Shown: in pieces, positions 1 to 20,575 of the stretch
How the letters are laid out: the number at the start of each line of letters is the position of its first letter
Numbering within the stretch: position 1 is the first letter of the stretch
The notes under the pieces: model-generated
What the model was told of the DNA's origin: nothing
The model's input: only the letters and a program-made list of their open reading frames with translations
The model's database searches: none
NCBI GenBank assembly: GCA_000310025.1
Contig: FN648570.1
Coordinates: 11,962-32,536, forward strand
From: Ectocarpus siliculosus
Taxonomy: Eukaryota > Sar > Phaeophyceae > Ectocarpales > Ectocarpaceae
Length of the DNA stretch: 20,575 nt
Reading direction: 5' to 3'
Translations under genes and position numbers: made by a program

Positions 1-117
<117 letters not shown>

Positions 118-1310: not shown

Positions 1311-1581
1311 GATCTGAGAACCACAGGTTGGTTCAGGAGCGAACTGGTTCTCTGATTTAATTCTACATTCCACCAATCGGCAAATCACCGCTAGTTCCCC
1401 GCCACATGCCCTGTGCCCCGATACTTGTTCTAGATTTCTCGATCCTCGAGTCCTCGAGTCTCGTCTGGTCGCAGTCGCTTTTGTTCTCTTCCTGTGCCTG
1501 CCTTCTCGTTTTTATGCATGCGCGATAGGACGCGTGTGGTCTGAATACGTAAAGTAGCAAACTAACTTCAACTTGTCATCG

Positions 1582-2038
1582 ATGCAGCTGGACCATGGGA
1601 ACCACAACGATGATGGTCGAACGGCGACTTGCGTGCGGAGGCCGTCCGAGCCCGGAATGCGGAGGAGTTGCTCAGAATGCGGACGAAGAAAGAAAAGTTG
1701 TGATGGCCAACGACCTTGCGGGTAAGACGTGCATCAGGGGTGAATACAAGTAGCAGGGGCCCGGAGACCCGATACGTGAAGTTTCGGGTCGAGGCTCAAT
1801 CCATTCTGAGACGTGACATTTCAAAATCCTACACGTTCACTTGGTCCAGGGGGTGTGTTATCTTGTGTCACATACGGTAGCGCATTGTTGGACTTCCGCT
1901 CAACAAGACACGCAAATTGTCGAGATCAACAGTTGGGCATTGAACAGGCTTTCAGGCCCAACAACGTCCAAGCGTTCTTCTCGACAGGAGCGCCTAGTTT
2001 TAATCCGACGGAACATGACCAGCTTCGACTTCAGTCAG
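1582..2038 (+). CDS. Exons 1-2: start codon and Zn2Cys6 DNA-binding domain
   Basis: Exon 1 starts at ATG 1582 and encodes 46 residues that include RRSCSECGRRKKSCDGQRPC, which is the first four cysteines of a Zn2Cys6 cluster (C30-x2-C33-x6-C40-x5-C46) with the usual basic stretch. Exon 2 opens after the acceptor CCAG (1846-1849). Read in frame GGG-GTG-TGT it supplies C49 (C-x2-C) and C59 (x9), completing the cluster, followed by a basic Ser/Arg linker. It leaves in phase 0 at the donor CAG|GTATTC (2039). The junction is odd: the only GT donor (GTAAGA at 1722) leaves phase 2, which would shift exon 2 into a stop at 1878. The frame that completes the cluster and matches exon 3 needs two bases fewer. 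Confidence 0.7.
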
Positions 2039-5000
2039 GTATTCGGCAAGAAAGCAAGATCGACTTTGAGGTGGAGAAGCCACGGTTCCGTGGAACGGTC
2101 CGGAGACGGCACTGGCATCTGACGATTGGCTTCGAAGTATGGTCCAAGTGATATTCAGCTTATCGCAGCGCGCCTATTTTCTGAAACTCGTTTTTTCCCT
2201 CAGAAACTTTCAGAAGGGAGGCACCGGGCCAAACCTAGACACCCACAGGCTCCCCAGTCCTGGAGCGCCGGGCAAGAGTTTGAGGTTGAAGTTCTCTCTA
2301 ATGCATACATAATTACTGAATGGACCAGACGGTTTGAAACGCCGATTGAGTTTCTGCACAACGGGCAGAGGAGGGAGGGGCGAGGAAGGTGAGATAGCAT
2401 CATCACAGGAGTTGTATTATAGTACATCGCCGAGGACCAAACAGCCAACCACGTGAAACGCAAACGTCTGGCTTACCGCAGTACGCTCCATGCCAGTCGA
2501 CACAGTAGGGGGTGGAGTCTAATGGTGTATTTGCCTCGAATCTTTAAGGCATCATCAGGTATATCCAGAATACTGTGATGTTCTTCATGTCCTTGAACTC
2601 GCTCAGCTTTCGCACAGTCAACAACAAACGTTACACGTCATCTTCAACAAGGAGTCGGAACACTGGTATGTTCGCAAAGTGGTGTGTGTGTGCAGCGTGT
2701 AAGCTTGTAAATTGGCACATGGTCATGCTACCTGCCTACATGAAGAATGAAGATGCGCTGCCTGCAGGTCGGAAACTCCTTCTGATGATCCCGTTGCCAG
2801 CTTTGCCTGCCTGTTTCGGAAATCGAAGACATATCTCTTTGCAGTTTGAACTACACCTAGCTGAGCATGTGTTCTGTTGAACCATCTGGCATGCTCTCCT
2901 TGCTGTTCTCGCGGATCAGGATATGTCTGTCGTCAAGTAGGAGGCCCATCCTACTGCCGTTTGAACCGCAGGCAGCTCGCCCGATGCACTCGAAACCCGT
3001 GAGCCTGTTGCTGCCGTTCGTCCTTGCTCGTCGTGAGTGATTGTTCTTTCAATTCGTACAGGGCAACGTATTTCCGCGTCGAATACATTCCCATCAGCAT
3101 ACATCGCTCACTCCTCCACGGTGGTACCGTTTTGCTTGCCTTCTGCCACCGCAATACGTCTGTCATCGCAGGCGTTGTGTAGGGTCAGGCAACCCGTGCT
3201 CGTACATAAAACGCCGGTGGCATCTTCCGCAAGCATACCGGGAGCAATCTCTGCCTCGGTCACGCGACCGTAACGGCGCGGACGGTAGAGATCCTGTGCT
3301 TCAGTCCTCACCATCCGGCGCACTCGCGACATCTGGCAGGTTACCGTTTAAGAGGTACCGTAGATCACGGCGTTCCCCCTTGCTTTGCGCGTTGCTGTAC
3401 CACTTGGACATGTCGACGAACCCAACATGAGTACAGACGTGCAGTACTACAGTAATTCTCGAACCATGTCACAGTACATCGGTTGTTAGGCAACCGTTGA
3501 GTTGAATCCGTTGAATTGAATTGCCACGAGAAGTGTTGGGTTGTTCATTACATTGGATCCGGAATCAGCCGAATCGGCTTCGGCCGTCCCACTCGGTATC
3601 GCCTCATGTGGTGTTTCCACCCGGTCGAGTTGGCGGTCCCCGTGGTGGTCTTTCGTGTCGGAATGCACAACACCTTAACCTCTCACCATCCAGTAATCAC
3701 CAACCTAGTAGCACCTATTCACAGTGCACTGACCTCACATCGAGCCCAGTTGATTCGGGTTAGGGGTTGGGATAGGGAATGCGTTTGAAACCGGCATGCA
3801 AGCTAAAAATAGAAATACGCTTGTCTTGCTGTGTCAACCATTCCCTTTACACCTTGTAGTCGGGCCGTCGCCTGCTGCTTGTGGTTGCATTTTCTGATGC
3901 TGTACCGGTAGCGAACAACGGCGAACGTCCGTTACGCAGGTGTTTTCCGGCGACGTCTCTGCAGGAAATCTACCCGTCAGGCTTCTATTCGAGGGTGGTT
4001 CAGCCTAGCAGAGCACATGGTCAGGGTTGACGGAGGGTGCCCGTGGCATCCGTCTTCGTTATGTCTCTGTCTGACTTTACATTCAGGTTCAGGTTTAGTG
4101 TATCTCCGGCAACCGGTCTCGTCGGAATGCAGGAGAGCGCCTTCCTCAGCGACTTCTTCGGCTGCGTCGGATTTTTCCCGTTAGCCACCCAGAGGTATCG
4201 TATCGCATGTGGCACATAGTTTTGATTGGAAGGCATTCGGTTTGGGGAAAAAGCGAGATGGTTACATTGCGCGTGGCATCGTTGGCAGATTGGCCGATTG
4301 AAGCAGCGTCTGCACGGCGTGGGCCCGCGGTACTGGTGTGGTGATGGGCGCTCGCGGCTTGCCCCTGCTGCGCCACGCCCCGTTGACCCGTACTACAACA
4401 TGTGCGGTTGGTTCGTTCGCTGTTATTGCCAGTGAAATTCGCGCGTCGATGGTGAAGATCATGACAACTCTGCAGTCGTCAGCTGTTGGGGGCGACTTTG
4501 GCGAACAAGGGCGCTTCGATGCGATCGTACGAGGGGCGGACTGGAGCAAGGCCTCCGAAGGACACCAGATTCCGATGAACCCGTCCAGTTGCACGTTCTG
4601 GTGTGCAATTGCCCTGGGGGCACTCGTGAAGGGCCATCCCATCGGATCGGTATGGAGTGGCGTGGGTTGATGAAAACGAGTTTCAGTACCTGGTCGAGGA
4701 GCCAGTTACTATCTCCGTTCCTACCTACATGTCGTAGGATTCTTTAACTTGTGGAATATATTTCGTTTACGGAATGTATGTCGTTTACGGAAATGTATTT
4801 CGTTTACGGTGCTTGTTGAAAGGTGACCAAGTACTCTCAACTGGCCCACGAAGCCCTGGCCAAGAGCAACTCGGCCCCCGCAGACGTCGAGGTCGCAAAG
4901 TGAGTCGATCAGGGATATCCTCTACCAACGTCACCAATGCACGTCTGCCATACGGCCTTCGACCTCGTCTCGCCTCTCTCTAGCTAGTGTTGACGTTCTC

Positions 5001-8000
5001 GAGACGATCACCGAATTAATGCCATGGGCAGCGCTCCGTTCTACGAGAACATTCACGCTGATTGCCGTGGAGTGGAGCGTTTAACGTCCCCTTCGATATG
5101 TCCGTTGGTGGCTGCCCAGGGCGTGGGCGATTCTGGCCTACTTGCACGGCTGGATGGGAGACTTGGTGAGGCTTTACCCCTGGCATGTCGTGGAAGTGTG
5201 TGTACATCGCGGTTGACTCACTACATAAATCTAACGTATTATCTGAGCTTTTTTTGCCTCAGCAATTGCCGTTTTAAGTGTATCGGTGCACTCGCCTGGT
5301 TGAAGCTCGTTAGAAAGTATTTGCCCCAGCTGGTGTATCTTCCCACAGGTTTCCCCGCTTCGTCCGCTCCACCATGACGTCAATCCTGCAGGCACAGTAC
5401 CAACAGTACCTGGCTCTTTCGGAGTCGTATGTGAGGAGTTTCAGCAAGCACGGGTCCACCGATGCTCTTCCAGTGGTGAGCGTACGTTTGCGGTCGATGA
5501 GGGCGCAAATGTTGACCAAGGTACAAAGAGCGTACCTCCTCTAGCCTATGCCGCTTCTTCTTACATTCGTGCGGCCGATCAATACCCACGACGACGAGCC
5601 CGGTGTTGCAAAGCGAAGCGTCAATCCAAGGTGTTCAAAGAATGTACTGGCACGAATGAACGAATGACATTGATTCATTCCGATTTCCTCTCCTCGCCTG
5701 ATTCTATGGTTTGGGCAGCTGCCGACATCGCTGAAATGTCCACATGTCCCATGCAACCGTGCGCTGACCAGGGGTTCTCCGAGGTTGTCACTTATGCGGA
5801 GATTTCTGACTCTTGCTGCGAAGAGAGGCTGATGAAATCGTTTGTCACGGAAGAGGAATCGATATTCCAGGTTTGTGAATCGGATACATGGCAGAGTCTC
5901 GGTGACATACGTTGAACCGGTGGTTCGATGTTCTGAATATGCAATTGGGTATGATTCGCTCCAGATTGTACACGGAATAGCATCTTCGCATCATGGGAAT
6001 AGGCCTTCAGCACGTAGAGTGGCATGCTTGAATGCCGTTGTCTTTCTTTTCTCGCCACTATCACCTCTCTTGCTTCTTGGCCCACACCCGCCCACCTCTT
6101 CCGAATACTCGGTGATCGCAGTTGAACGAAGCTGCCACCGAGGGCGAGATATATCAACATGTCGCTCAATCCTTCAAGGCGTTCGAGCAGGCTTCTCACG
6201 CAATAGCGAGTGCGCAGATGTGGAAACCACGCGAAACCCAAAGCGAGGCCGAGGGTGATGGCCGATCAGAGAGAGTACGCCCATCCGACAACCCTCTTCT
6301 GTGTATGGCGATTTCCAACGCTATGGGTACCGTGCTGCAAAGCGGGCGTTGCCTCGATTTCGAGCCGCTTGAAGCAACGGTAGATCGGTGAGTGGAATGA
6401 AGATACCCGTGAGGAATCCAAAGGTGGTATGACACCACGGTTGGATCACGGTGGGACTAAAGGTTTCCACCGAGATCATGGTGGCCTAAGGGTGGACATC
6501 AGGAGCCATCGAGGCGCGACTATTGAAATGCTTGACCTGGACAGTCAGGAAACCTAGTCTGGACAGTCAGGAAACCTGTTCTCCTTGTGTATTGTTTCAC
6601 TTTCTTCCCATTCGTCCGATGTTGTACGTTTCACTTCGCAATCGGCCTGTATGTCGACGTATGGGATGCGGTCGCTCCGGCGAGCAGGCCAAGTTTTGGC
6701 GAGGGTGTCGGCAGCCTCTTCATCAACGTGTGAGTTGGGGTGTGTTGAAGTCGTCGAATGCATGTGCCTATCCGACACCATGCTTTCCGAGAGAGCCCCA
6801 ACGAACTGTAGTTGTCGACAGGGGGTGTTGCAGTCCTGCTGCTTGGGCTCAGTGGGTTGATGGTATGTGTCCATACCATCAATGTAAGCCTGAGATGTCA
6901 TGCTATGAGCATGGCACTTCGCGGTAGCAACTGCCGATCTAACGCACCGCTGCTGTTCCCCTGTTGCTTAGGCTTCTCACTCGGTATGCTTTCACGCTCT
7001 CATTCTTTTTCCCGGGAACCTCGAGTACAACAGGGCCCTCGCCGTTGTAAAGGGAGTAAAAGGCGACCTGCAAGCCTCCATGGAGAGACTTCGCCGCTGC
7101 GTGGAGGTTTATGAGCGGTATCCTGGCTTGTGCCGTGGCACAATGGGGTGAGTCGCGTGTGCGACCTCGGCACAAGCAGAGGTTATGCAACTGTGGTTCA
7201 CGTGGGGGGACGCACAGCGTTCGCTGCGTCATCTTGCCCCATGCACTTGACGATTGTAAACCTGTCGATGATGCCTGATCATGTGCGCGGTGCTTACTCC
7301 GCGACGAAAAAACGTGCATTCTTGGTTTGTACATTTCCGTTCATGGATGCTACCGTTGAAGAGACGCATAGATTGTTTCTCGCATATCGTGAGAAACGCT
7401 GTGTCACCTATACCTGTTCTGTGTTGTGATGTTTCCTTGCCTGGGGCTTGTAGTATTCCGATCAGTTGGCCTTTTGTTAAAAATCGTTGGGCTGTTCGTG
7501 CCGGCACTCGTCAACAACGGCAGTGGCATCAGTTGGGCCCGTCGTGTTGCATGGTCACCCCCAATTTTTCTACACTCGTGGGTGTCCCAGGGTGCTTACT
7601 TCGTGTCGTATAGTGAAGCCCACGGAAACCTCGCTGGCCGTTGGGGTGCATGAAAGTGTACGAAACAGAGCGCGCGCTAGGCGTTGACATCTGTGAAAAT
7701 CTTTCTGACGTCTCCAGGTCGTGCGGAGTTGAGTTGGATTGGTCGAGGAAAGCACAGGACTCGCCAATGAAATTCACGCCTTCGTGGACGTGCGATGATA
7801 ATGTTTTTCATTCGTACAGTAAATAGTGGTGTGGGCGCATGATAAATTATGTATGCGGCTAGTTTGACCACCCAAGCGGAGCACGGCAGCAAAATTTCAT
7901 GGGTACGAGAAGCCTTACTGCAGCACAGTATGTTTGGTTGGCGGTAGAAACCATTGTCGTGGTGTATCTAATAGCGGTATCCACGAAGTGACATTTTTGA

Positions 8001-8950
8001 TTGCCTTCTCCTGCCGTGCCTCCCGCTGCCGGCGTGTCCATGAAAGGCACCACAAGGCACACTTTGTACTCATTTGTCTCGCAGCCGTAAAGGACTCCAG
8101 GGCTCGAGCGATGTACGAGAGGTTGCGGTCGTTCTACAACTCATTCCGCCCAGCTGACACTCTGCCTGTACCACCGTTTGACGAGTGGCATGGAGTGGGA
8201 ACCTTCTGCGACTATTTCTACTGCAGGTACGTACTGCAGTTGAGCTTGCCGATCGCAGATCGGGTAGAATCCACTGTGTGGGAAAACCGACATGTAGCAC
8301 GCCTTCCCTAGCATTGCTTCGGGGAGGAAGGCTTTTCCGGCGCTGGGTGGAAGCAAAATCACGGAATTTGTCAACATCGGGCTCAAAGCTGCACGCACTA
8401 GAGCTCACAGCGAACCCGGACGACGTGGAATTTTTCAGTATCCTCCCCTCGATACAAACACTCGCTTGGTAGGGCGGTCGAGGGCCTCGTTGCCAGTGAG
8501 CACATGAAGGACTTCTCGGGGCCACCAGTCGACAGAAACGACATCGGTGATAGAATGAACGGCACCGATCGTGACGAAGGCGAGGCGGCTCCCCTCTGTG
8601 ACGTGAACACGCGACATGAAAGGCGGTCGGCCGGCTACATCTCTCAGAATATAATCGACACAGACTCCGATTGGCCATCTGAGAGCGGGACCGACGGTGT
8701 TACAGGCTCAAGTGTAATAGCGTCGACACCTCCTGCTTCTCCAGTATTCTTTCACTACCCATGCTATCAGTCGGAGGCACGCGTTCACTCCAACCGCTTC
8801 GAAAGCAATGCCATGGTCGTCGCTCCCGAGTCATTGTCGAGGTCGCTAAAGATGGGTGACAGGGGTGGGGTGATGGAGGATACGGAGGACGAATGCATTG
8901 GTGCTGGGAATTGGTTGGATGTGACCCATGCCATGTTAGATGCACTCTGA
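1582..8950 (+). CDS. Zn2Cys6 (fungal-type) transcription factor, multi-exon gene model
   Basis: My exon model is 1582-1719/1721, 1850-2038, 2204-2388, 2549-2665, 2768-2843, 2972-2998, 3062-3120, 4433-4649, 4823-4899, 5120-5165, 5392-5475, 5631-5870, 6122-6387, 7034-7147, 7718-7818, 8085-8226, 8312-8346 and 8439-8950. Intron phases match at every junction except intron 1, giving about 874 codons and a TGA at 8948-8950. The ATG at 1582 follows an in-frame TAG at 1555. Domains: a Zn2Cys6 binuclear cluster at residues 30-59, then a middle region (about 310-405) with the hydrophobic helical style of the fungal transcription-factor regulatory domain, then an acidic Ser/Asp-rich C-terminus. Members of this family are nuclear proteins that bind CGG-type half sites; the target here is unknown. 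Exons 5-7 and 17 are the weakest. Most introns are 85-270 bp; introns 13 and 14 are 646 and 570 bp, and the one at 3121-4432 is 1.3 kb and carries a repeat. Confidence 0.72.
2204..2388 (+). CDS. Exon 3 of the Zn2Cys6 gene
   Basis: The acceptor is a strong pyrimidine tract, TTTTTTCCCTCAG (2191-2203). The frame is open for 61 codons plus 2 nt and ends at the donor AAG|GTGAGA (2389). The entry phase 0 agrees with the exit of exon 2 in the zinc-cluster frame. The peptide (for example SWSAGQEFEVEVLSNAYI, ITEWTRRFETPIEFL) is non-repetitive and protein-like. It could belong to a PAS-like or linker region, but I do not recognise a family motif. Confidence 0.65.
2549..2665 (+). CDS. Exon 4 of the Zn2Cys6 gene
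   Basis: Entry in phase 2 is possible at the acceptor CTTTAAG (2542-2548), and the exon leaves in phase 2 at CACTG|GTATGT (2666). It contains EYCDVLHVLELAQLSHSQQ followed by TLHVIFNKESEHW, which has convincing amphipathic-helix character. Two other AGs nearby (2558 and 2568) would give the same frame but the wrong entry phase, so the exact 5' boundary is uncertain. Confidence 0.6.
2768..3120 (+). CDS. Exons 5-7 of the Zn2Cys6 gene (tentative)
   Basis: The proposed exons are 2768-2843 (acceptor CTGCCTGCAG, peptide including SETPSDDPVASFACLFRKSK, weak donor GCA|GTTTGA), a 27 nt microexon at 2972-2998 (acceptor ACCGCAG, good donor CCC|GTGAGC), and 3062-3120 (acceptor TTCGTACAG, donor CG|GTGGTA). 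The phases run 2 to 0, 0 to 0 and 0 to 2, as needed to join exon 4 to exon 8. The last block abuts dispersed-repeat copy B and may be partly repeat-derived. These are the least certain coding pieces; transcript data could drop or move any of them. Confidence 0.35.
3125..3492 (+). repeat. Dispersed repeat, copy B, inside intron 7
   Basis: This is the diverged counterpart of the copy at 515-892, in the same orientation and with the same order of landmarks. A further similar block occurs at 4296-4372 (TTGCCCCTGCT end) against 1090-1170 (CCTGCCCCTGCT end). It lies within the largest intron of the Zn2Cys6 gene (3121-4432), which explains that intron's unusual size. No coding capacity is visible. 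Confidence 0.6.
4433..4649 (+). CDS. Exon 8: start of the regulatory-domain-like region
   Basis: The acceptor TGTTATTGCCAG (4421-4432) gives entry in phase 2, and the donor TCG|GTATGG (4650) exits in phase 0. The peptide includes EIRASMVKIMTTLQSSAVGG, then FDAIVRGADWSKASEG and SSCTFWCAIALGALVKGHPI. The 'FW-A-ALGAL--G-P' pattern is typical of the start of the middle homology region of fungal-type transcription factors, which mediates regulation and protein contacts. This is one of the best-supported exons. Confidence 0.75.
4759..4812. repeat. Threefold ~20 bp repeat in intron 8
   Basis: Three imperfect head-to-tail copies of a unit close to ATGTATTTCGTTTACGGA lie in the 173 bp intron between exons 8 and 9, ending about 11 bp before the acceptor. 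They make up about a third of the intron. Confidence 0.8.
4823..5165 (+). CDS. Exons 9-10 of the regulatory-domain-like region
   Basis: Exon 9 (4823-4899; acceptor TTGAAAG, donor AAA|GTGAGT) encodes VTKYSQLAHEALAKSNSAPA and an acidic end. Exon 10 (5120-5165; acceptor GCTGCCCAG, donor TTG|GTGAGG) encodes AWAILAYLHGWMGDL. Together they give the helix-turn-helix alternation 'Y-LA-EAL ... VE-AKAWAILAYL-G-MGD', as in the helical repeats of fungal-type Zn2Cys6 regulators. Phases 0 to 2 and 2 to 0 fit exactly. Confidence 0.75.
5392..5870 (+). CDS. Exons 11-12 of the Zn2Cys6 gene
   Basis: Exon 11 (5392-5475) follows the acceptor ATCCTGCAG and reads AQYQQYLALSESYVRSFSKH before the donor GTG|GTGAGC. 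Exon 12 (5631-5870) follows CAATCCAAG and runs 80 codons to CAG|GTTTGT. Both are phase 0 at each end. Exon 12 is Met/Cys/Glu-rich (for example DSMVWAAADIAEMSTCPMQP) and ends in an acidic segment, SFVTEEESIFQ. Its cysteines have no recognisable metal-binding spacing. Confidence 0.72.
6122..6387 (+). CDS. Exon 13 of the Zn2Cys6 gene
   Basis: It follows the acceptor GGTGATCGCAG and is open for 88 codons plus 2 nt to the donor CG|GTGAGT (6388). The peptide contains two predicted helices (LNEAATEGEIYQHVAQSFKA; PLLCMAISNAMGTVLQSGR) separated by a charged linker. Entry phase 0 matches exon 12 and exit phase 2 matches exon 14. No catalytic motif is visible; it is probably part of the helical C-terminal half of the regulatory region. 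Confidence 0.72.
6537..6577. repeat. Direct repeat of 19 bp in intron 13
   Basis: CTGGACAGTCAGGAAACCT occurs exactly twice, at 6537-6555 and 6559-6577, separated by AGT. The neighbouring 6420-6500 is also internally repetitive, with several GGTGG/CCACC pairs around ATCACGGTGG-like words. All of it is inside the 646 bp intron 13. Confidence 0.9.
6857..6882. other. Perfect 11 bp inverted repeat (hairpin) in intron 13
   Basis: TTGATGGTATG and its exact reverse complement CATACCATCAA flank a 4 nt loop (TGTC). A transcript would fold into a stable short hairpin about 150 nt upstream of the exon 14 acceptor. Its role is unknown; it is not a terminator in this eukaryotic context. Confidence 0.85.
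7034..7818 (+). CDS. Exons 14-15 of the Zn2Cys6 gene
   Basis: Exon 14 (7034-7147) follows AGTACAACAG and encodes ALAVVKGVKGDLQASMERL followed by RRCVEVYERYPGLCRGTM, a clear helical segment ending at the donor GG|GTGAGT. Exon 15 (7718-7818) follows the pyrimidine-rich acceptor TTTCTGACGTCTCCAG in the required phase 2 and leaves in phase 1 at TACA|GTAAAT. It encodes CGVELDWSRKAQDSPMKF and so on. Exon 14 is well supported. Exon 15 rests on splice sites and phase agreement, and another frame across it (EESTGLANEIHAF) also looks protein-like, so it is less sure. Confidence 0.6.
8085..8226 (+). CDS. Exon 16 of the Zn2Cys6 gene
   Basis: The acceptor is strong (CTCATTTGTCTCGCAG) and the donor is near-consensus (TGCAG|GTACGT). 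The peptide VKDSRARAMYERLRSFYNSF followed by RPADTLPVPPFDEWHG and VGTFCDYFYC is clearly protein-like. Entry phase 1 and exit phase 2 fit the neighbouring exons. Confidence 0.75.
8312..8950 (+). CDS. Exons 17-18: C-terminal tail and stop
   Basis: Exon 18 (8439-8950) follows the good acceptor GAATTTTTCAG and is open for 170 codons to TGA 8948-8950. It is rich in Asp, Glu, Ser and Gly (for example NGTDRDEGEAAPLCDV) and ends WLDVTHAMLDAL, like an acidic activation-type tail. Joining it to exon 16 needs a 35 nt exon (8312-8346; acceptor CTTCCCTAG, weak donor CTGG|GTGGAA). Alternatively, the frame entered at 8312 stays open through 8346 to a TGA at 8502-8504, giving a shorter protein with the end RASLPVST. 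The two ends could be alternative isoforms. Confidence 0.55.
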
Positions 8951-11270
8951 ATCGGGTGACAAGAAACCCCTCGCGGAGGCCAACGTGGCTTTCAAATGCT
9001 GCATGTGGCACGCCGAGAAGCGCTTTTCTCTGCTTGTTTTTCGTTTGAGCGTCTCTATTGAATATTTCGAGGTTATCCGTGCAATGTCGGCACGTCCTTT
9101 GCAGTTGGAAGTGTTATCACAAGAGCCGACGATTTCGAGGTTGCCCGTTTCTTGATCGTCGCTTCTCCACGTTCGTGTGCATTTCTCGAACGATGTTGTA
9201 CCGGCATTGTACGTGCCCAGGCGCACCAGTACGGTGGTTTTGCACCCCTCGGGGTTATGGCACCGGGGTGAGCAAGAACACCTTGGACGGTGTGGTATAA
9301 TACAATGTAAAACCCGCCGCTTCGGGCGCAAGGTTGTCTGCAATCGCGATTGTCTCCGGGCAGTTCATTAAGCTGATGTCGTTTGTGCAGTTGCTACAGT
9401 CAATGCAGCCAAGACATCATCGGATCGACACTCCCGGAGTGTATGGCGTTGTCACGATGCACCCGGAGGAACGAGGCCTTTTGTCCCAAATGGCACCGCG
9501 GCTTGCTTCGGGCAGCCGTGCTGGTCGTCTATGAGGTTGTCGTTTCCTTTGTTGGCCGTCTCTCGCTTCCACCCGGCGTTTCAAACGCGGACGTTCTGTT
9601 GAACTCAACGTTAGTTATTTCTCGAGGGATCCTTGGTATCTTATTCTCTCGCTTCCACCCGGCGTTTCAAACGCGGACGTTCTGTTGAACTCAACGTTGG
9701 ATATTTCTCGAGGGATCCTGGGTATCTTGTTCTCTCGCTTCCACCCGGCGTTTCAAACGCGGACGTTCTGTTGAACTCAACGTTGGCTATTTCTCGAGGG
9801 ATCATTGGTATCTTGTTGAAGGTGGTGGAGAGCACAGGCGAGATGAAGTTTCGCACACAACCAATCAATGCTGAACAAGCAAGCGCAGCATCATCCCGAC
9901 ATACACACACGGTGTTCATTTTCTCGCTCGCTAGATCACCCCTCCTGGTGGAACTTGCAAGTATGGACCTCCATCGACAGCGCTATGCAACGAGCTCTTC
10001 CGCCTTCGCCATCACATCTTCCTGACTGTAGTACGCAGCACGTGCGACACATGCATCCATGCCCCACATTGCCAGGTTCTCCCTCGAGCTTCTGTGGCGT
10101 CGGACCCCCACACCCAACAATATCCGCATGTTTTTTTTTCTTCGGGACTCCACGCCTCACGCTCACCCTTAACCCCCCGCCGATTCGTCGTATTGGTCAG
10201 CATGACGTTTAAAGTCTCACTTGCTTGGGGTAATTCATTCTCTTTTCTGTCGTGCCCGACCACGAACCCCTTTGCACAGTTTTTGCTGTTCACACCAACC
10301 AACCGTCATGTACAAAAAAAATATACAACCTTGGAACTGCAGAATGTGTTATTCATACTACAACGCTCACCGATTTTCCCACGATGTCCGTTGAAAAACA
10401 TAAAAAATATCTCATGCCTGCCGCGTTTACGTATTGGTTGCATCTTTCACACAACAACCAATCAACATATGTCAGTGTGGAAAAGTGCAAGCCACGCGTG
10501 CATATATTGTCGTTCCATCCTTAACAGCGACGGTATTGTCAAGAAGGAAACGGTAAGTATAGACGGACAACCATCGACAAATAACACAATCTGATGTAGA
10601 GAGTACAGACGAGAAAAAATGATTCGCATACATACGCATGCCACAACAATCAATCGGTGCTGCGTACCAAATTACGCGCGTTATTGTATTTTTGCACCCT
10701 ACACCGCAGCGTTTGATCGTTCGATGTCACACGCATCATGCTGGTACCTTGGGGGGCTCGCTATAGTGCCGGTGCCCGGTGTAGTGCCGGTGTTTCGGCT
10801 CACACAAATTGAAAGAGTCGTTATGTAGATTCTCGACAACGTTGACTTTTTGTCTAGACTAGATCGCGAAATATTCGACCATGAAACTTTTTGAGAGCTA
10901 TGTACGTAAGTGTACGAAATTTACGAGAAACGGTATAGTCGTCAAAGAAGCACCCTTCGTTCAACACGCGTGTCTAGTGCATCTGGAATGATATGAACAA
11001 GCACAGTAAAACACGCCGTCGAGAGTTGTCCGTGGAGACAGGCCTTGCAGCCATCGATGTATTCCGGAATAGGCACCCCGTTCTCGAGGAACCTTGTATC
11101 TGAATGATGATGAGACCATGGTCATCGAATGACCTGAGTGTAGACGCTTGCGAGAGACGCGATACTTCCAGCGAATACTGAAACTGGTCGAGCAAAAAGC
11201 ACAAAAGAAAACCTTGGTAATTTCCACACGGATCTGGGTGAATTCAAAAGGACCCTGTAGAACGATTTTC
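8951..11270. other. Intergenic region
   Basis: No gene is supported here. The early part should contain the 3' UTR and poly(A) site of the Zn2Cys6 gene, but I cannot identify them. It holds the 86 bp minisatellite at 9561-9818. From about 10180 to 10720 it is more AT-rich, with A and T runs. Short ORFs in all frames are low-quality and lack splice support. Confidence 0.55.
9561..9818. repeat. Minisatellite, 3 x 86 bp
   Basis: Three head-to-tail copies start at 9561, 9647 and 9733, each beginning TCTCGCTTCCACCCGGCG and differing at only a few sites. Each unit contains GTTGAACTCAAC (arms GTTGA/TCAAC) and a CTCGAG palindrome. The period, 86, is not a multiple of three, so ORFs crossing it change frame between copies and it is not a protein repeat. 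The high identity between copies points to recent expansion. Confidence 0.95.
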
Positions 11271-11573
11271 ATGCCCCCTAACGCAAGGCACGTGGCTGGA
11301 ACAGCTCCCATCATTACTCTGAAAAATGGTTGTACCGAGTATCTTGTCCGGCCCGGCCGGTGTTTGACCCCACTACTACTGTTGCTCGTGCTTCTTGCGT
11401 TCCCCGCTCCTTCTCAACCATCTCGAGAGTGCAGTAATCAAGGTTCTGAGGTGACAAGATCTGCCTACTACGAGAGCTACGAGAGCGGGGTAGTGGCCGC
11501 CGGGACAGATGGAGGAGGAGGGTCCGCGACCAACGTCGCGAACGAAGTCCATGACATTCTACCCAATGTGAGG
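11271..11573 (+). CDS. Possible exon with signal-peptide-like segment
   Basis: From ATG 11271 the frame is open beyond 11573, where a GTGAGG donor-like site follows. It is open to 11846 if unspliced. It contains a run LTPLLLLLVLLAFPAPSQ that resembles a signal peptide or a single membrane segment, but this lies about 35 residues in, and is followed by Ser/Gly/Tyr-rich sequence. No family is recognised and no downstream exon could be joined. It may be a chance ORF. Confidence 0.22.
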
Positions 11574-12381
11574 AAGCCATATCAACCTCTCTGTCGCAGG
11601 TCATCTTGTGAGGTCCGTTATGAACGCGAATCCGTGCGTGGGCACACCCCTCTTGATACTGTACAACGGCCTATACTTGCCCACAGCAAACGCGTAAGCC
11701 TGTCCACTGACCGTACCTATCACCAAGCGTATGGCACCTGTTGTAAGGCGAGAGAAACCCGAGCTCGCGTCGGCGTTTGTGTCCGATTGGTTCTGGTTGC
11801 CAATTGTGCAACTTCTCATGTGTTGTGGTCCTGTCTTTTTGTCTAGCGAGCTACCCGATTGGGTTGATTGAAGGGGCTGCTGACTCCGCATAAACCACAT
11901 GAACCGTTGTTCGTGCGAGAAGGCACTCGATTACTCTAAGATTGGGCGCACCACCGTGCACAAGGCGTACCCTACTATCCTTCGAGAACGCCTCCTCGCA
12001 TGGGAACCCCCCCACCCACAACAAACAAATACGCTCGGGGTAGCACAGAAACGTCAAGATAGAACCGCGGTTTGTGTTATAGACTCGACATTCGTGGGTC
12101 AGCGTTGTGCTCTGTGTACGGGTGCCTCACGCCAACGAGGACGTTTTGCCCCGGGAACCAATTTCATTGTTTGAAATATCGCCCCGCTAGAGTACCTTCC
12201 AGAACGGCCCGACGTGATTGTTTCGCCAAAAACGAAATGACCGCTCCCGGAGGCGTTCTCAAATGATACTACGCTGTATGTGTTGCACGCGTGTACGACT
12301 CCTCCGCGGACCCAAGATCTCGCCACGGCCAATCTGTCGTGAACTCACCTGCTGCAGGGAAACACCGTAGCATGCGGGCTT

Positions 12382-12934
12382 GCCTTCGACGGCAAAGATT
12401 TCATGTCGTGGCTTGCAGAGTACGTGGATCACGACCAGTACCTGTGCATCGCCCCGGTGTCGAAGGGCTTCAGGGGCGCGTGGAGGCAACGAGCTACGAT
12501 AAACCGGCCGGTGGTGGCCGAAACGTCCATCGCGCAGCTCAGGTACTGCTTGAAGCTCGGCCTGCCCTTGCGCATTCGGGGTACAAGCATATGCAACGCG
12601 GCTGCCCGGAGCTTGCGTACAAAGGTGCTTGTGGGTGGAGCCCAGCGCCTTGTGGTCAGGCCGCCAGGGGGGGGCACCTGGAGTTCCTCAAATGGCTTCG
12701 CGCGCAGAGTTGTAGCTGAGATGAATTTCGTACTGGTGCCCCGCGGTCGGATGCCATTCCCGGGTGCTGGAATGGGCGCCGTCACCCACCGAGAACTGGC
12801 CGACGGCGATGCGGGACCCGAACGCGTGCCCTCGGGACGAGCGGGCGTGCGCCGGTGCTGCGCTAGGCGGGTGTAGCGACATTCTGGAGTGGCTTCGGAG
12901 ACACGGCTGCCCTTGGGTGACCCCACGTGTGTAA
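12382..12934 (+). pseudogene. Ankyrin-repeat protein pseudogene, frameshifted
   Basis: Typical algal ankyrin-array segments appear in successive frames. The first, from about 12382 to 12600, includes MSWLAEYVDHDQYLCIAPVS and AQLRYCLKLGLPLRI. The second, about 12620-12718, includes AARGGHLEFLKWLRAQSC and a TGA. The third, about 12725-12934, includes RVLEWA, DERACAGAALGGCSDILEWL and RRHGCPW, then a TAA. The expected 'GC-W---TC--AA-GGHLE-LKWLRA' period is clear but needs at least two frame changes plus a stop, so the copy is broken. The N-terminal part looks like the F-box-like cap often seen before these arrays. Intact relatives are probable elsewhere in the genome. Introns could explain one shift but not the in-frame stop. 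Confidence 0.7.
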
Positions 12935-14248
12935 TCGGCCGCACGTCGCGGAGACTTCGACGGTCCCCTTTTGGCATTTTCACTTCACTTGAAGTGTTGT
13001 GTGCCATCATCTCGTATGTATGTGTGCTCTCTACACCACCTTCAAAGTCATACCAACCACCTTTCGAAGTGATGCTGTAGTTATCGCTAAGTTCAAGTGA
13101 AATTTCGCGTCTGCAACGCACGGTGGAAACGAAAGATGATCGCAAACATATGTCGAAAACCTCGCAGCGGACCAGCAACGTTGCCCGAGGCAAGCGGCGG
13201 CACCAATGTCAAACCAATAGATGAAGCCAGACACCCTCTCGGAGCGAAGAACACAGATAGTTCATTCCATGCTGGAAGAATGATTCACAAAAAGTTCATC
13301 ATGATTTTTGTTTTTTGCCACAGTGGTCATAGTGCACGATGATGAAGTGAAACACTATCAAATGAAGACAGGTACCCCCCAAAGCAACAGATATCAAATA
13401 TATGTCGACGCAAGGGAAACTTATTCACTCGAAAAGTTCAATGAATATCATTTGAGTGCCGGTAGAAATCGGGCGCGAGTGAGTACAATAGCAGCATCTG
13501 AAGACTGGCACCCGGCCGTGAATTCACAACGTCCATATACATATTATCCGTCGCGCCCACAGCACGATACATTCGAATATTTGTTTGAGAGTATGCACCT
13601 GCAGAGCAAACATATACTAGAAACACCAGGCTGGTGAGCGAGAACCCCAACTTTCCTGCAGAAACCCACCTCGCCCTAAACAACATTAATTCGTCCGTAA
13701 CCCATTCGTCCACGCAGGCATAGTAGTTCGTTGTATACAGCTATGAAGTCTTAAACGACTCCTGATAAACATGCTAGCTCGAACTAGTGCGCAGGTGGTT
13801 GTGTATCCTAGAAATAGAGATAAGCACCTCGCCCTGACTGATATACATTCATACCTCATTCATCAACGTGACAGAATGGTTCGTTCATTCGCTGGAAAAC
13901 GAACATTGAACTTGATGGCCGGCGGCCGGCAGTGTCCACTCGATCTCCTTCTTGCATGCGTCTCTCGGTTATACAGACAACGCAGGAGAACCCGTACGAA
14001 AAAAGGTGATTGTTCGTACCTCCTCCCTCTTGTGGGCTTGGACTGGCTAGAGAAGACGACATTGGTTGCTTGCTCTCGGACATTTTTGCTTCGAGAAATG
14101 ATTTGGTCGTAGATCCATTGTGGAGGTCATTGCCTCATGACTCATTACGTTTCATTCAGTGGTTGGTGGTTTGGAAGGAAAATGTGAAAGCGAGACCGGA
14201 ATTCCCCTGACCCAGAATTCGTAGTGACAATATTTTTCGTCTCAATAC
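12935..14248. other. No supported gene
   Basis: There are scattered short ORFs on both strands, none with convincing composition together with splice sites. Nothing recognisable was found. Confidence 0.5.
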
Positions 14249-14649
14249 TCAATGTGGAAAAGGTATCCCACGAATACAGCAGCATGGAATGGCGCCCGAA
14301 TCTCCTCGTTTCATTCTTTGATTGATTGATTGGGAGATAAATCTGTGTAGGTTCTAACAAGACGAAAACAATCAACCATCCATGTGAATCGGGGTGCCAG
14401 TATTTTGGAAGTATGTTATACTCACTCCTTGATGTGTGGGCAGGTGGCGCCCGTACTTACGAACCCGTAGTTCTGGCCGAGGCTGGGGTTCTTAAATGGA
14501 ACGGTTGTACCGCGAATGGCCGCGGCATATCGTATAGGAGAACCGGGTTCACCAAACGGTGCCAAGTTCTCAAGGGATGGCCAACAACATAAGAAAACGT
14601 ATGAGCTCCAGAAAATGGACGCGAGGCACCCGAGGCCAGTCGAAGCCAT
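14249..14649 (-). CDS. Possible two-exon gene for a small secreted protein
   Basis: On the minus strand an ATG at 14649-14647 opens a frame with a hydrophobic N-terminus (ASIFWSSYVFLCCW at residues 10-23) that could be a signal peptide, then PFGEPGSPIRYAAAIRGTTV and PFKNPSLGQNYGF. It ends at a consensus donor TTC|GTAAGT (exon 14649-14461, phase 0). A good acceptor, TTTTCGTCTTGTTAG, starts a phase-0 exon at 14353 that runs 34 codons to TGA (14251-14249), giving about 97 aa. A second donor (GGA|GTGAGT at 14425) is an alternative. No family is recognised; the model rests on splice sites and composition only. Confidence 0.28.
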
Positions 14650-14989
14650 CGGGAAATCAGAAATCGTTGACTCTTACACGGGGCGGCAGTAGAGGCGGGT
14701 GAAATTAACCTATGAGCCTACCCCCAAACGCCTCTCCTATGAAACCAAATATACAAAAATATCACACCAGTCCAAATTCCATCTTGTTTGTACACTGACC
14801 CAAGAAATTGAGCCAGCGTCAGAAGGCGTTTGGCTGCCATGCTTGAAGTGCGGGATCTAGAATAATGGCTGCATGTTTAGACTGCATTCATGTTCGGCTG
14901 GTTTCCACATCATCCGTTGTAGTTTTGGGCCGCGTAAAACTCTTCTCCCCTGCTCGGCGTGCGTGAACAAGTAGCAGCACTGTTGGCTG

Positions 14990-15600
14990 ATTTTACTCTT
15001 CCACGACAAGTACGGGGGTGCGCACCCATCACGTACTGCAAACGCATGCGGTACATTGACCTCGCATCTCTGCATCGAATGCCGGGACGGAGCGGTAAAT
15101 GCAGGGTTTTCGAAGGCCCAGGCCACGTCGCGCGAGCTTGAATGAACCAGAAGCTTGTCATCATACTTGCCTTTGAAAGGAGGAGTGAAAACTACCACCT
15201 ATAAATGAAACTGTTGCTTCTGTGTCGTGTGCTCGGCAGACAGAAAGACTATGTAGGCGGAGATTATGTCAACTGGCCGCCCTAGCTCCCTCATGTTGTC
15301 TACCCACTCACCCGACCAAGAGAATACGAACCAACGGTTCGTACGAGCGACGACTAGTGACCTGATGCCGACCCGTGGGGATTCCCTGGCATGGCACAGC
15401 GAACGAAAGTAACGATGATGACCCACCAGCTTCTTTCTCTGGTCCATCCTTGTAAACCGGAACCGAGGCCGGCCGGTGGAAACCCGGCAAACGTATCGCT
15501 CCGTCCCGCCATCGTGTAGAGATGCGAGGTCCATGGTCTAACGACTACGGCATGTGTGAGTACAATGTAGTACCCCCCACACACAATCGACCCTGAGTAC
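14990..15600. repeat. Inverted duplication of a decayed coding-like unit
   Basis: The plus strand from 15058 (GACCTCGCATCTCTGCATCG...) matches the minus strand read from 15531 (GACCTCGCATCTCTACACG...) with small gaps. The core arms are 15058-15097 and 15494-15531. Weaker similarity extends to about 14990-15175 and 15400-15600. Both arms translate to related peptides (IDLASLH...CRV...MNQKLV against MDLASLH...CRVS...MDQRKKLV), so the unit was once coding or transposon-derived. One plus-strand stop interrupts one arm. The minus-strand frame 15534-14860 is open apart from one TAG (15201-15199). Confidence 0.55.
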
Positions 15601-15650
15601 ACTCGAATTCCCGAACGAGGTACATGAGATATGCAGATTTCATGCATGCT

Positions 15651-15953
15651 TCATGCGGTCTCCGACACCAGAAAGAGATGATGGATGTCGTTGGTGAGGA
15701 ACCCTAGCCTTGCAAGGAAGGGCAAACTAGCTTTCCCAGTGCTTGCTGCCAGTTTTAGACTACTGTAGCCCTCGTTCTCAACATAGTCTAAGAATGTTGA
15801 AACTGCAGGTCGCACTGGAAGCTGACGTAACGTTCGGTATGTTCCGTGTGGCGCATTTGGTGCCCCATTTTGAGAAAGTCCAGAGGACGGGACCGAAGCT
15901 GGAGTCAGGCCTACCTTCACATGAAGATTCAAGAAAGTTTTCAACCAGGTCAC
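15651..15953 (-). CDS. Unassigned open frame, possible exon
   Basis: The minus-strand frame is open for 100 codons ending in TGA. It contains protein-like sequence such as STFLDYVENEGYSSLKLAAS and FLARLGFLTNDIHHLFLVSE. There is no ATG; an acceptor-like AG at CTTCATGTGAAG could start it as a terminal exon, but no upstream exon was found. The opposite strand has an overlapping open frame (15743-16012) of similar quality, so strand and coding status are both unsure. Confidence 0.2.
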   Translation of the reverse strand: MTWLKTFLNLHVKVGLTPASVPSSGLSQNGAPNAPHGTYRTLRQLPVRPAVSTFLDYVENEGYSSLKLAASTGKASLPFLARLGFLTNDIHHLFLVSETA

Positions 15954-17210
15954 AAGCCGATCATGCGTGCAGCAATCAACCTACCCCACCAATGAACACC
16001 ACAGAAACATAACTTTCAACATGCAGAGGAGAACCAGACCGAACGTAACATGCTATCAAGAGAGTAGCACCCGCCACTATTATAATAGTCCCGCGGGAAG
16101 GAGTAGCCCCATCTTCGAAACCCATCACAAGAACCAAACGACTTGCAGACTACTTGGGCAGGCTTTCTTGGAGAGGAGTTCGCCTTCGGGCAGAAGGAGG
16201 CAGTCTGCGACGAAGCAACCCACGAAACAGGGCGGCGGTGTGAATCGCCTCCATCGCCGTATTATTTATTATATTTTTTCGCCCTAATAATTATGGCGAC
16301 AGTCCCCCCATTTTTCGTGGTGAGACGTGCACTACACTCTTCAGTACTATTATAATACACTTCTCAGTGTATTTTTTCCGTGTAGGACGAAAAAAAAAAA
16401 GAAGTCTGCATGAACTTGTTGAAGAAAAAACAAAAAAAATGTATGGACGTAAAGAGTGGGTAGCGGCCTGTACTGAGAAATCAAGCCTTACTTCTTCCAC
16501 GTCGAGAAACTACTTCATCGTATGAAACTTCAACATAATACTTTTACATGGACTACCCTACGAGCAATCTTGTCCGAAACATTTTCGTGATCTTGAGATT
16601 GCGTCGATACCCACCCTGCCCTAACGAACCTTGTCCCAAACTTCACGCGTGAAAAAAAAGCATTGCGTCCATTTTCCGCCGGACCTGATTTAATACCTAC
16701 CGCCAGGCCCTTATCTACCTCAACACATTCACTTGTTATCCACCCCTCATTCCTGCCATGTATCCAACCAAGCTGATCCAACTCTTGCCTACTAAAAATA
16801 CAGGTTCCGTGATACCGTCAAGTTTACTATTTAGAGTTCGCCGAGGAGAACAAGTCGTCGACCACGGAGAGAGGCAGAGAGAGAGAGAGAGTTACAAGAG
16901 GCGCGGAGCAGAGCCACCTGCACTTCCAGTGGTGCGACAATGGCTTCCCCGCGCGCTGGCTGTCGCCGCCACCGCAAACCGAAATAACTTCTAGCAGTCA
17001 TTGAACCGCTTCCTAACGGGACAGAAATGCGGCGCACGGTTCATAATTTAGAAGAAAAAAACTAGCGGCAAAAAGAAACAAAAAAAAAAGAAAACCGACA
17101 CTCGAAGTTAATTAACCGCCGAACCAAGCGTCAAGTCCGGGCCGAGATGAGCGGAAAGTGAAGATACGTGCGGTACCTCACCCCCCTCCGAACCGATTAT
17201 CACAGCTACG
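15954..17210. other. Non-coding spacer with A-rich tracts
   Basis: No gene is supported here. It contains poly(A) runs near 16389-16400 and 16426-16440 and near 17055-17095, an AT-rich patch at 16258-16370 and a short (GA)n at 16877-16890. Confidence 0.55.
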
Positions 17211-18085
17211 TTACTCGACGGCGAAGAGGACGTACAACCTTCTGAGCAATGAGTTTTCGGAAACCTCTCGACAACGCGGTACGCTGCATAAGCCACGAAA
17301 GATACTACCCCTTCCATTACTCCACGACGACGGAGAGGACGTACAAACTAGTCGACCTTTTCTTTCTTCGGAATGCTGTTGACGAGGCAGACACTTCCAA
17401 CGCCGCCACCACGCCGGATCGATCCCTAAACTTGAAAGCAAACACCAAAGCGCATGACCAGATCACCGCAGAACCAACTCCGCAGAGGTTCCGTCGTCGA
17501 ATGAAGCGAAACACAACAACAACGACCACGACACCGCCGCAGATCCGAATCGATTCCTATGTTGATATGAAACGCAACAATGACGAAAGGTTAAAACGAA
17601 ACGCAACAACAACGAAAGATTAGACCACCACCGCACCGATTCCGCCATAGACGCGTATGCATTGGAATTGAGCCGAACGCTATCAGCAACAACGACCATT
17701 GCAGCACCCATCCCGCCATCAAGGTTCAGCCGTGGATCGAGGCGAACGTCAACCACAACGACGCCGACGACCGTGATCATCAATCACCGCAGCAGCAGCA
17801 GCAGCAGCAGCAGCATGCCCAAGTCCCTAAGACGTTTCATCGATCACCGCAGCAGCAGCAGCAGCACCTCCATCTTCCCTACGGCGTCGAGGAAGTCGAA
17901 TCCTTCCCCGACAACACTAACGACGACGATGACCGTGATCATCAATCACCGCAGCAGCGGCAGCAGCAGCAGCAGCACGTCCAAGTCCCTCCTAAGACGT
18001 TTCATCGATCACCGCAGCAGCAGCAGCAGCACCGTCGGCTCCCTCCTAAGGCAAGGAGGAAGTCGAATCGTCCCCGCCATCCAGC
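17211..18085. repeat. Imperfect tandem-repeat field with CAG runs and a 162 bp duplication
   Basis: Two units, starting at about 17759 and 17921, share CCGTGATCATCAATCACCG, (CAG)n, AAGTCCCT...AAGACG and TTTCATCGATCACCG, then (CAG)n again. The unit offset is 162 bp. Upstream, weaker repeats pair GAGGACGTACAA (17226 and 17335) and AACGCAACAACAACG-like words (17510 and 17600). Length differences between units are multiples of three. One plus-strand frame (17595-18152) stays open without an ATG and reads HQSPQQQQQ...VPKTFHRSPQQQQQ twice; another (17662-18435) reads Ser runs. An ATG ORF at 17249-17623 is Thr/Lys-rich. Coding status is unresolved. Confidence 0.7.
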
Positions 18086-20575
18086 AGGTTCAGGAACGGC
18101 GACGACGCCGACAGCGAGCCGCTGTGGGGCGTGGTGGTGGTGGCGCTACTAGAAGAGGAGCTCGAGAAGCAAAGCGAGTGGTAGTCGGCGCGCCCTCCCG
18201 ACACCCCCTCTCCGGCCGCGGAGCCCGCCCTCCCCTCTCTCCCGGCGGAACCTCCGCCGCCAGAGGAAGAGTTGGAACTCCCTCTTCTTGCCGCCGCACC
18301 GGCTTCCCGGGGTCCTCCACCGCGCCCGGCGGGCAGCGGGGTTACGCCGTCGCAGCCAAACGTAGCGGCTACGGGCCTGGCCACGGACGCCTCGCCAACG
18401 GCAAACGACCCGCCACCGTCGCCTCCGCCGCCTGAGGACGATGATTTCCTCCCGTTGCTCCACCTGCTGCCGCCAACACCGGCACCCGGGTACATCGATC
18501 CCTCCGTCGCGAAGCCGTCCGTACCGCTTCCGCCGCCGCCGCCGCCGCTGCTGCTCCTCTCAGCCCCTACTACTCCGCGGGTGGAGTCTTCGCCCTCCAC
18601 ATCTTGGTGGTGGTGCCCGAGCCCCGTGTTTAACGCCCCGCGACGGCGAGCGGAGCTCCAACCAGCCCCGGAATCATCGTCCCCGGGTCGGCGCTTGATG
18701 GTCGAGCACCCGCCCCACGTGCTCCCGAGCGACTGCCGCGAGGAGTCCCCCGCGCCGCCGCCGCCCCCGCGGCCGTTGGTGGCTCCCGCCGGCGTACGCG
18801 GTCTCAGCCACCCCGCTCGCGATACCGAGTACCCGTCCAAGCCTTCCCCGTCGCTGCTATCGTTGTCATCGAACATCAAAGATGAGGACACGTTGTCGCT
18901 CGCGGCTTGGTCTTCCCGACCGTCACCGCTGCTGCTGCCGCGTATCCTCTCCGTGGAGCGAGAAATTTCACCGCCCCCCCCCTCAGAAATGCGCGAAAGG
19001 CCTAGGCCACCGCCGGCGGCCGCCGCCGCCGCCGCGGTGTTCTTCCTTCTCAGGGACGCAGCCAGCGGTGCGGCCGCCATCACCACACCGCTGGAGCTCT
19101 CCCCCCCCGCCGCCGCCGCCGACACCGTCATCGCTGAGGCGCCGTCATGAAACAAGCGCCCTCCTCCAAAACCGCCGCCGCCGCCGCCGCCGCCACCACC
19201 GGCCGCGGGGGTAGCCTCAACTTGCGCAGCAGCAGCAGCAGAGGAACAACCAAGAAGGTGCCTAGGAACGTCGACGTCGCCGCCGCTCCGGGTTCCGTCG
19301 CCGGTGCAGCCACCGGCGCCGCCGCAAGCGGCGGCGTCGTCGAGCCGCGCCGGGGAGTCGTCGTAGACGTTATAGGACGACAGGTGGCCCGGCGCCGTCG
19401 GGTCCCACTCGTAGCTGTCCTCCAGGATGGAAAGCTCTCCTCCGCGCCTGCGCGCGGACGGCGACACGACAACCGTCGCCGCTGCGGGCGCCGGCAGCGG
19501 CAGCGGGAGCTCCTCCTCTCTGGCTTGCTCTGCAGGTGCCGAGAAAGCGGCGGTTGTGCCGCGGTTCCGGGGGTTAACGGCGGGAGGAGGCGGGTTGGCG
19601 TCTACGAACACCGGGAACGGCAACGACGATGCCGCCGCCGTGCCCGCTGCTACTACCGGCGCGGCACCAGCGGCACCATCCCTCGGAGGCGCAGGACCAC
19701 GACCAAAAGACCTCACGAGGGCACCTGGCAATTTCGTCTCCGCTCCGCTGACCCCCGGAGCTTGTCCCGCCAATGGCATCGATCGAGCAAAGCCACCACC
19801 GCTACCAGCAGCCGATTCATCATCGCTGCCACCGCCGCCGCTGCAGTCGTCCTCGGACCCATCACCACCGCGGTCCCGGTAGACGGCGAACCCAAGGCCG
19901 CCGCCCGATGAGGCCTCAGCAGACGTCAAGCCGCCGGGAGAACTCGGAGTAGCAGTGGCCACTGATTCCGCCGCCGCCGCCGCCGCCGCCACCGCCACCG
20001 CCACCGCCGATGCCGCACTATCGTCGACACCGACATCGCCGGTGCTCGCATCTCCATCGCCGTCCTGAAACACGGAGAAACCTAGACCAGACGAGGCCCC
20101 TGCCAGGCCGCCGCCGCCGCTAACCTTACCGTCACCGGCGGCATCCTCGAAGACGGGGAACCCTAAGCCCTGAGCTGAAGCAGTAGCAGCACCACCCCGA
20201 CGACCATAGCCACCGGCAGCAGCACCGCCACCACCGATAGCACCGGGAGCAGCAGGAGCAGCAGCATCCCCCGCGCCGTCGCGGAACACAGCGAAACCAA
20301 GCCCCGAGGACTCCCCCCCCGTCGACGACGACAGATGACCGCCGCCCCCTTGCCCCACCGCCGCCGCCGGCGCATCCGAAACCCCTAGCCGGCCGGTGGG
20401 AGCCGAAGCCGTGGTCCTGCTGCTCCTGCTGTGGCCGGTAGTGCTCGAAGCTGGCGCGGTCGTGGCTCTCGACATCCCGCGGAGCACGTCGGCGTTGGTG
20501 AACCGTGTCGGCTGGGAGCTGCGATCACAGAGCGGCGCCAGGAGCCCCCCCCCCCCGCCCCCCCCTCCTCCGCCC
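18046..20575 (-). CDS. Large low-complexity protein with five ABBA-like motifs (5' end outside window)
   Basis: The minus-strand frame is open from the right edge to the TAG at 18045-18043, more than 840 codons with no stop. It remains open through a poly-Gly run at the edge, so the true start probably lies beyond the window. The first in-window ATG is at 20475. Numbering from 20487, F-x-V-[FY]-x-D motifs lie at residues 65-70, 110-115, 137-142, 200-205 and 291-296. The first four share the setting GLGF-x-V-[FY]-x-D-x2-GD. The rest is Gly/Ser/Ala-rich with homopolymer runs, plus one denser island (ELSILEDSYEWDPTAPG, about 351-367, then YNVYDD at 372-377). F-x-[ILV]-[FHY]-x-[DE] is the ABBA motif, which docks cyclin A, BUB1, BUBR1 and Acm1 on Cdc20/Cdh1. 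A BUB1/BUBR1/Mad3-like or other APC/C-linked role is an inference. No KEN box, TPR or kinase domain is in the visible part. Confidence 0.7.
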   Translation of the reverse strand, partial: GGGGGGGGGGLLAPLCDRSSQPTRFTNADVLRGMSRATTAPASSTTGHSRSSRTTASAPTGRLGVSDAPAAAVGQGGGGHLSSSTGGESSGLGFAVFRDGAGDAAAPAAPGAIGGGGAAAGGYGRRGGAATASAQGLGFPVFEDAAGDGKVSGGGGLAGASSGLGFSVFQDGDGDASTGDVGVDDSAASAVAVAVAAAAAAAESVATATPSSPGGLTSAEASSGGGLGFAVYRDRGGDGSEDDCSGGGGSDDESAAGSGGGFARSMPLAGQAPGVSGAETKLPGALVRSFGRGPAPPRDGAAGAAPVVAAGTAAASSLPFPVFVDANPPPPAVNPRNRGTTAAFSAPAEQAREEELPLPLPAPAAATVVVSPSARRRGGELSILEDSYEWDPTAPGHLSSYNVYDDSPARLDDAAACGGAGGCTGDGTRSGGDVDVPRHLLGCSSAAAAAQVEATPAAGGGGGGGGGGFGGGRLFHDGASAMTVSAAAAGGESSSGVVMAAAPLAASLRRKNTAAAAAAAGGGLGLSRISEGGGGEISRSTERIRGSSSGDGREDQAASDNVSSSLMFDDNDSSDGEGLDGYSVSRAGWLRPRTPAGATNGRGGGGGAGDSSRQSLGSTWGGCSTIKRRPGDDDSGAGWSSARRRGALNTGLGHHHQDVEGEDSTRGVVGAERSSSGGGGGGSGTDGFATEGSMYPGAGVGGSRWSNGRKSSSSGGGGDGGGSFAVGEASVARPVAATFGCDGVTPLPAGRGGGPREAGAAARRGSSNSSSGGGGSAGREGRAGSAAGEGVSGGRADYHSLCFSSSSSSSATTTTPHSGSLSASSPFLNLLDGGDDSTSSLP
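19170..19200. repeat. (CCG)n triplet run inside the ABBA-motif ORF
   Basis: An almost pure CCG/GCC run encodes a poly-Gly tract (about residues 430-439) in the minus-strand protein. A similar run at 19969-20000 encodes an Ala/Val tract, and the G-run at the right window edge encodes poly-Gly. Such runs are prone to length variation and assembly error. Confidence 0.85.
19600..20295 (-). other. Array of five ABBA-like motifs
   Basis: The motif cores are 20278-20295 (FAVFRD), 20143-20160 (FPVFED), 20062-20079 (FSVFQD), 19873-19890 (FAVYRD) and 19600-19617 (FPVFVD). The Gly-Leu-Gly before the first four is spelled with different codons in each copy (ggg-ctt-ggt, ggc-tta-ggg, ggt-cta-ggt, ggc-ctt-ggg), while the peptide is constant. 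This argues for selection on the protein rather than recent DNA duplication. A sixth, weaker match, YNVYDD, is at 19357-19374. Confidence 0.75.

Follow-up and report, generated by a model that had tools for sequence, protein, structure and literature searches.

A multiple-ABBA protein of Ectocarpus siliculosus is probably a MAD-type member of the MadBub checkpoint family

Recurrent splitting of MadBub genes has been described in general terms in the relevant part of PMC7414715. In those sections of Tromer et al. (2016; PMC5204127) that we draw on throughout, the MAD branch is characterized by the order TPR, ABBA1, Trp-KEN2, ABBA2, with the KEN2 motif of MADs flanked by two tryptophans. According to Tromer et al. 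(2016; PMC5204127), the checkpoint and the efficient binding of APC/C-Cdc20 both depend, for human BUBR1, on the ABBA1-KEN2-ABBA2 cassette. The same sections place ABBA repeat arrays in the MADs of Physcomitrella, basidiomycetes and stramenopiles, list Ectocarpus among the stramenopiles, and list a MadBub duplication, or MAD-BUB split, for Ectocarpales (Tromer et al., 2016; PMC5204127).

The window analyzed here is the whole stretch of 20,575 nucleotides, which corresponds to C116:11962-32536 in a genome of 492 contigs. Its minus strand holds the array exon, an open reading frame of 842 residues (window positions 18046-20574) that is still open at the window end. Five F-x-V-[FY]-x-D hexamers occur in this frame, all of them where the original prediction had located them (19600..20295): FAVFRD (20278..20295), FPVFED (20143..20160), FSVFQD (20062..20079), FAVYRD (19873..19890) and FPVFVD (19600..19617). 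The shared frame GLGF-x-V-[FY]-x-D-x2-GD that had been described for four of them is likewise present in the sequence, the last hexamer being the one outside it. A relaxed pattern adds a tentative, looser ABBA-like sixth copy, YNVYDD (19357..19374, minus strand). All five array copies, and the upstream ABBA1 discussed below, match the ABBA consensus F-x-[ILV]-[FHY]-x-[DE], and by order the first array motif is the candidate ABBA2. A Pfam search with the array frame returned no family at E 1, and the tail that it encodes is of low complexity and probably disordered. The frame also contains three RxxL matches to the D-box pattern, which is short enough to be expected often by chance.

Could the hexamers themselves be chance products of an untranslated, low-complexity frame? 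The frame is rich in Gly, Ala and Ser, its DNA is GC-rich and of low complexity, and long open frames run on the opposite strand too, all of which would fit such an origin. The numbers, however, speak strongly against it, as 0.010 hexamers are expected from composition and five are observed. Among 20,000 residue shuffles of the frame, 19,806 gave no match, 193 gave one and a single shuffle gave two, with never more than two; the other five reading frames of this DNA together yield a single hexamer match. A DNA pattern for GLGF-x-V-[FY]-x-D, GGNYTNGGNTTYNNNGTNTWYNNNGAY, searched with zero mismatches, has four matches in the 189-Mb genome, all four of which lie in the array, and its reversed version, used as a control, has none. 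Codons have also diverged silently between the copies, as the original prediction stated, while the core residues were kept: the four framed copies, compared at their seven core codons, differ by 0.80 per synonymous site vs 0.05 per non-synonymous site, the latter value being partly built in since the copies were selected by motif match, and the former being unaffected. At the two free positions, across all five copies, the synonymous and non-synonymous values are 0.72 and 0.55. Because the silent divergence is free of this selection bias and is high, it suggests that the array copies are not recent. We regard a chance origin in an untranslated frame as extremely improbable.

Past the window, on the same strand of C116, six exons (one tentative) with GT donors and AG acceptors splice into a single open frame. 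The first three, read from the sequence together with PF08311, make up the TPR (C116:50639-50734, C116:49424-49557 and C116:48368-48482, all minus strand). They are followed by three minus-strand exons called from splice sites and an open frame, namely a tentative linker exon (C116:46986-47081), the ABBA1 exon (C116:43902-44111), which ends in SSARLGFAVFVE, and the KEN2 exon (C116:42273-42478), which carries AAWADYGTRASRQKENTANPS (W-x10-KEN). Joined, the six encode in order the TPR, LGFAVFVE/EEF (the slash marking the exon border) and W-x10-KEN, with ABBA1 adjoining the KEN2 exon on its upstream side and in frame. The three joined TPR exons match Pfam PF08311 (Mad3/BUB1 region I) at E 1.2e-26, above the cut-off, and among PDB entries they come closest to fission-yeast Mad3 (4aez, E 2.3e-17), followed by BubR1 (2wvi, E 1e-13) and Bub1 (4a1g, E 5.5e-11). 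The whole genome yields four exon matches to PF08311, two on C116 and two on C2, and none to Mad3_BUB1 region II (PF08171). Two matches to the ABBA pattern, FSVYVE (C116:44913-44930) and FLLFFD (C116:47867-47884), map to the minus strand in the interval from the TPR exons to the ABBA1 exon, outside the exons read.

The KEN2 exon shows the KEN and the first tryptophan of the family motif; the second tryptophan was not found up to the run of N that follows, and would probably fall in that unread stretch. Above the TPR exons, a further run of N (C116:50775-65318) is probably where the KEN1 position would fall, and beyond it the minus strand of C116:65319-81787 holds one KEN only (73450), by eye unlike KEN1. 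The six frames of C116:1962-51999 contain six KEN tripeptides, three per strand, and since KEN and ABBA patterns also arise elsewhere by chance, a KEN alone weighs little. The weight of the motifs comes from their place, that is in frame, in exons beside the TPR and in the order of the family.

Do the array and these exons belong to one gene? The KEN2 and array exons are separated by a run of 8,118 N (C116:32537-40654), and the array frame is itself without a domain, so that the array exon could be a separate neighbor gene, for example an Acm1-type APC/C inhibitor, joined to the MAD gene only by scaffolding. Strand, order and splice phase all argue otherwise, the array exon lying on the strand of the upstream exons and coming next after KEN2. 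The KEN2 exon leaves two codon bases, which is the phase required by a possible acceptor, GATCGCAG/CTCC, that would start the array exon at window position 20518; the join would read ...KENTANPS-S-SQPTRFTNADVLRG, although such agreement has one chance in three and an additional exon is possible inside the unread stretch. The context of ABBA1 (SSARLGFAVF) is moreover similar to that of the first and third array copies (SSGLGF-x-VF), and the family, in the sections cited above, has an ABBA2 after KEN2 (PMC5204127), which array motif 1 fits by order and strand across the 8,118 N. A separate neighbor gene is thus unlikely, and we infer that the array and the TPR are parts of one gene. The MadBub-type protein, one of the options offered by the original prediction, is supported accordingly, because exons for the TPR (PF08311), ABBA1 and KEN2 follow past the window in the order expected of the family and on the strand of the array, linked to the array across the run of N.

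The other two TPR matches belong to a paralogue on C2 (C2:2247575-2251829, minus strand) with TPR and Bub1-type kinase exons. One of its TPR exons matches PF08311 at E 3.8e-8, and the best PDB match of its TPR is BubR1 (E 1.1e-9), followed by Bub1 (E 3.1e-8) and Mad3 (E 2.9e-7); for this reason the TPR alone cannot separate MAD from BUB. The TPRs of the two genes are 34% identical over 77 residues (26/77). A kinase exon of the paralogue carries HMDIKPDN and DFGR, and its PDB matches at E <=0.01 are BUB1 in six cases out of six (best E 1.7e-6). The last kinase-exon piece gave one PDB match, at E 0.086, which was taken as chance. On the minus strand of C2:2229000-2258999 there are seven motif matches (three KEN, four ABBA), none within the exons read: one ABBA match contains a stop, four of the seven are located below the gene at a distance of more than 9 kb, the ABBA-pattern match FFLFLE (C2:2248249) falls in a presumed intron that separates two kinase exons, and one KEN (C2:2258150), about 6 kb above the TPR exons, could be exonic. 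An additional 10 kb upstream of this region has no KEN or ABBA match on the minus strand. A neighboring gene on the minus strand of C2 matches SNRNP27 (PF08648, E 3.9e-18). The two loci agree with the reciprocal set expected after MAD/BUB subfunctionalization, as outlined in the sections consulted, and with the split given there for Ectocarpales (PMC5204127).

Of the partner domains that the original prediction envisaged on the minus strand past the window, the TPR and KEN2 are present and a kinase was not found there. An undivided MadBub or Bub1-type gene would have its kinase further downstream, toward and below the window start. The three read-through minus frames of window positions 1-18045 gave nothing in Pfam at E 0.1, a weak negative because a comparable scan of C2:2240500-2248999 returned the neighboring SNRNP27 only, although two kinase exons and part of a third were covered; one C2 kinase exon given alone to Pfam also had no match. 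Since the Pfam scan missed the kinase exons of the paralogue, tblastn and a scan for the catalytic loop were used instead. With the C2 kinase exons as queries against the window and the C116 sequence read, nothing better than E 0.45 was found, whereas the C2 TPR exons, as a positive comparison, find C116 at E 6.6e-5 and 8.6e-5. The pattern [HY]xD[LIVM]KxxN has no minus-strand match in the same sequence and one match on the plus strand. These searches spanned 59,538 bases, of which 28,843 read N, and divergent exons could escape them; below the window, a second flanking run (C116:1962-11961) reads N throughout, and the sequence examined ends at 1962. Given these searches and the separate Bub1-type gene on C2, an undivided gene with a downstream kinase seems very unlikely, and the locus is better read as the MAD partner of that gene.

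Duplications at exon borders were seen at two places in the C116 gene. In the intron that follows the ABBA1 exon there are four further copies of that exon's final 27 bases (RLGFAVFVE; C116:43269-43928, minus strand), three of which keep F-x-[VL]-F-x-E and one of which has G replacing the last E; one of the four has lost the GT after the motif. The copy at C116:43631-43657 is followed by a GT and preceded, within 300 bases, by three AGs; the resulting exons, of 69, 135 or 144 bases, would all be open, a multiple of three in length and end in RLGFAVFVE. For the other three copies, no exon with a GT and an intact motif was found within 300 bases. None of the intronic copies was counted as an exon, these being calls from sequence only, and the 69-base candidate leaves this less clear; it could be spliced in as an extra, in-frame ABBA exon. 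At up to seven mismatches, the ABBA1-end core has exactly five copies in the C116 sequence read, all in C116:43269-43928. The repeat adjoining the copies is dispersed, with at least 53 matches (the best 40 of 451 candidates scored), and among the matches listed on other contigs at most nine of the 27 motif bases are covered. The second place is C116:49526-50110, a tandem array of 4.9 copies with a 120-bp unit, through which the beginning of the second TPR exon, together with its CAG acceptor, extends into the preceding intron. The intronic ABBA1 ends may indicate how ABBA copies come about or change, and since a duplication of this sort is also seen at the second TPR exon, such events at borders are not special to ABBA. 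Elsewhere in the genome there is a large family of EsV-1-7 cysteine motifs, with at least 150 matches (the best 150 of 880 candidates scored), a family whose size suggests a brown alga.

Taken together, the motifs are very probably the ABBA motifs of a brown-algal MAD (BubR1/Mad3-type) paralogue of the MadBub family, an assignment that follows from homology and motif order. The predicted protein would run from a Mad3/BUB1 TPR through ABBA1 and KEN2 into an array beginning with ABBA2, followed by four further canonical ABBA copies and perhaps the looser sixth (YNVYDD), with no kinase found.

To our knowledge, fission-yeast Mad3 has no long, low-complexity ABBA array. By sequence, its TPR domain (PDB 4aez) is the closest solved one. 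The TPR and, with array motif 1 as the candidate ABBA2, the ABBA1-KEN2-ABBA2 order are common to the Ectocarpus gene and human BUBR1. Human BUBR1 has a C-terminal (pseudo)kinase. It carries three ABBA motifs according to the sections cited here (PMC5204127), whereas the present gene has six canonical ones (five in the array and ABBA1) and no kinase was found. The array MADs of stramenopiles, basidiomycetes and Physcomitrella, compared with this gene for domains and motif order as described in those sections, also combine a TPR, ABBA1, KEN2, an ABBA array and a separate Bub1-type paralogue (PMC5204127). The original prediction held an expanded ABBA array to be unusual, but arrays had already been named in stramenopile MADs (PMC5204127). 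Array and duplication had both been reported before, in the sections consulted of Tromer et al. (2016; PMC5204127), and the protein is a further example of a known family type. The gene may be the same as the Ectocarpus MAD of Tromer et al. (2016). Among the papers listed by literature searches on the checkpoint in brown algae or Ectocarpus and on multivalent ABBA repeats of Mad3, there was no further study of it.

What might so many ABBA motifs do? By homology, the protein should retain Cdc20 within the mitotic checkpoint complex, where KEN2 and the ABBA motifs on either side of it would bind the Cdc20 WD40 propellers and block the APC/C. Extra ABBA copies could make rebinding more likely, or retain additional Cdc20 or Cdh1, and we infer that the added copies bind Cdc20 and act jointly, through multivalency. 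Candidate partners are encoded in the genome: C19 carries a Cdc20/Cdh1-type WD40 gene (249 bits vs a Pfam cut-off of 200), and exons on C22, whose best score of 102 bits is below the cut-off, probably make a second; the genome search for this domain gave 43 matches, mostly weak WD40. One may go further and see in the array a working multivalent sink for Cdc20/Cdh1, in which the number of motifs sets checkpoint strength and is still changing through small duplications at exon edges, of which the intronic copies of the ABBA1 exon end would be an example. This fuller reading is possible but doubtful; if true, a single MAD molecule would hold several co-activators.

The finding leaves the picture of the family unchanged. 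What it adds is a concrete MAD, probably from a brown alga, with six canonical ABBA motifs and a sister of Bub1 type, that can be used to ask why ABBA motifs multiply in certain lineages and whether the extra copies alter the strength of the checkpoint.
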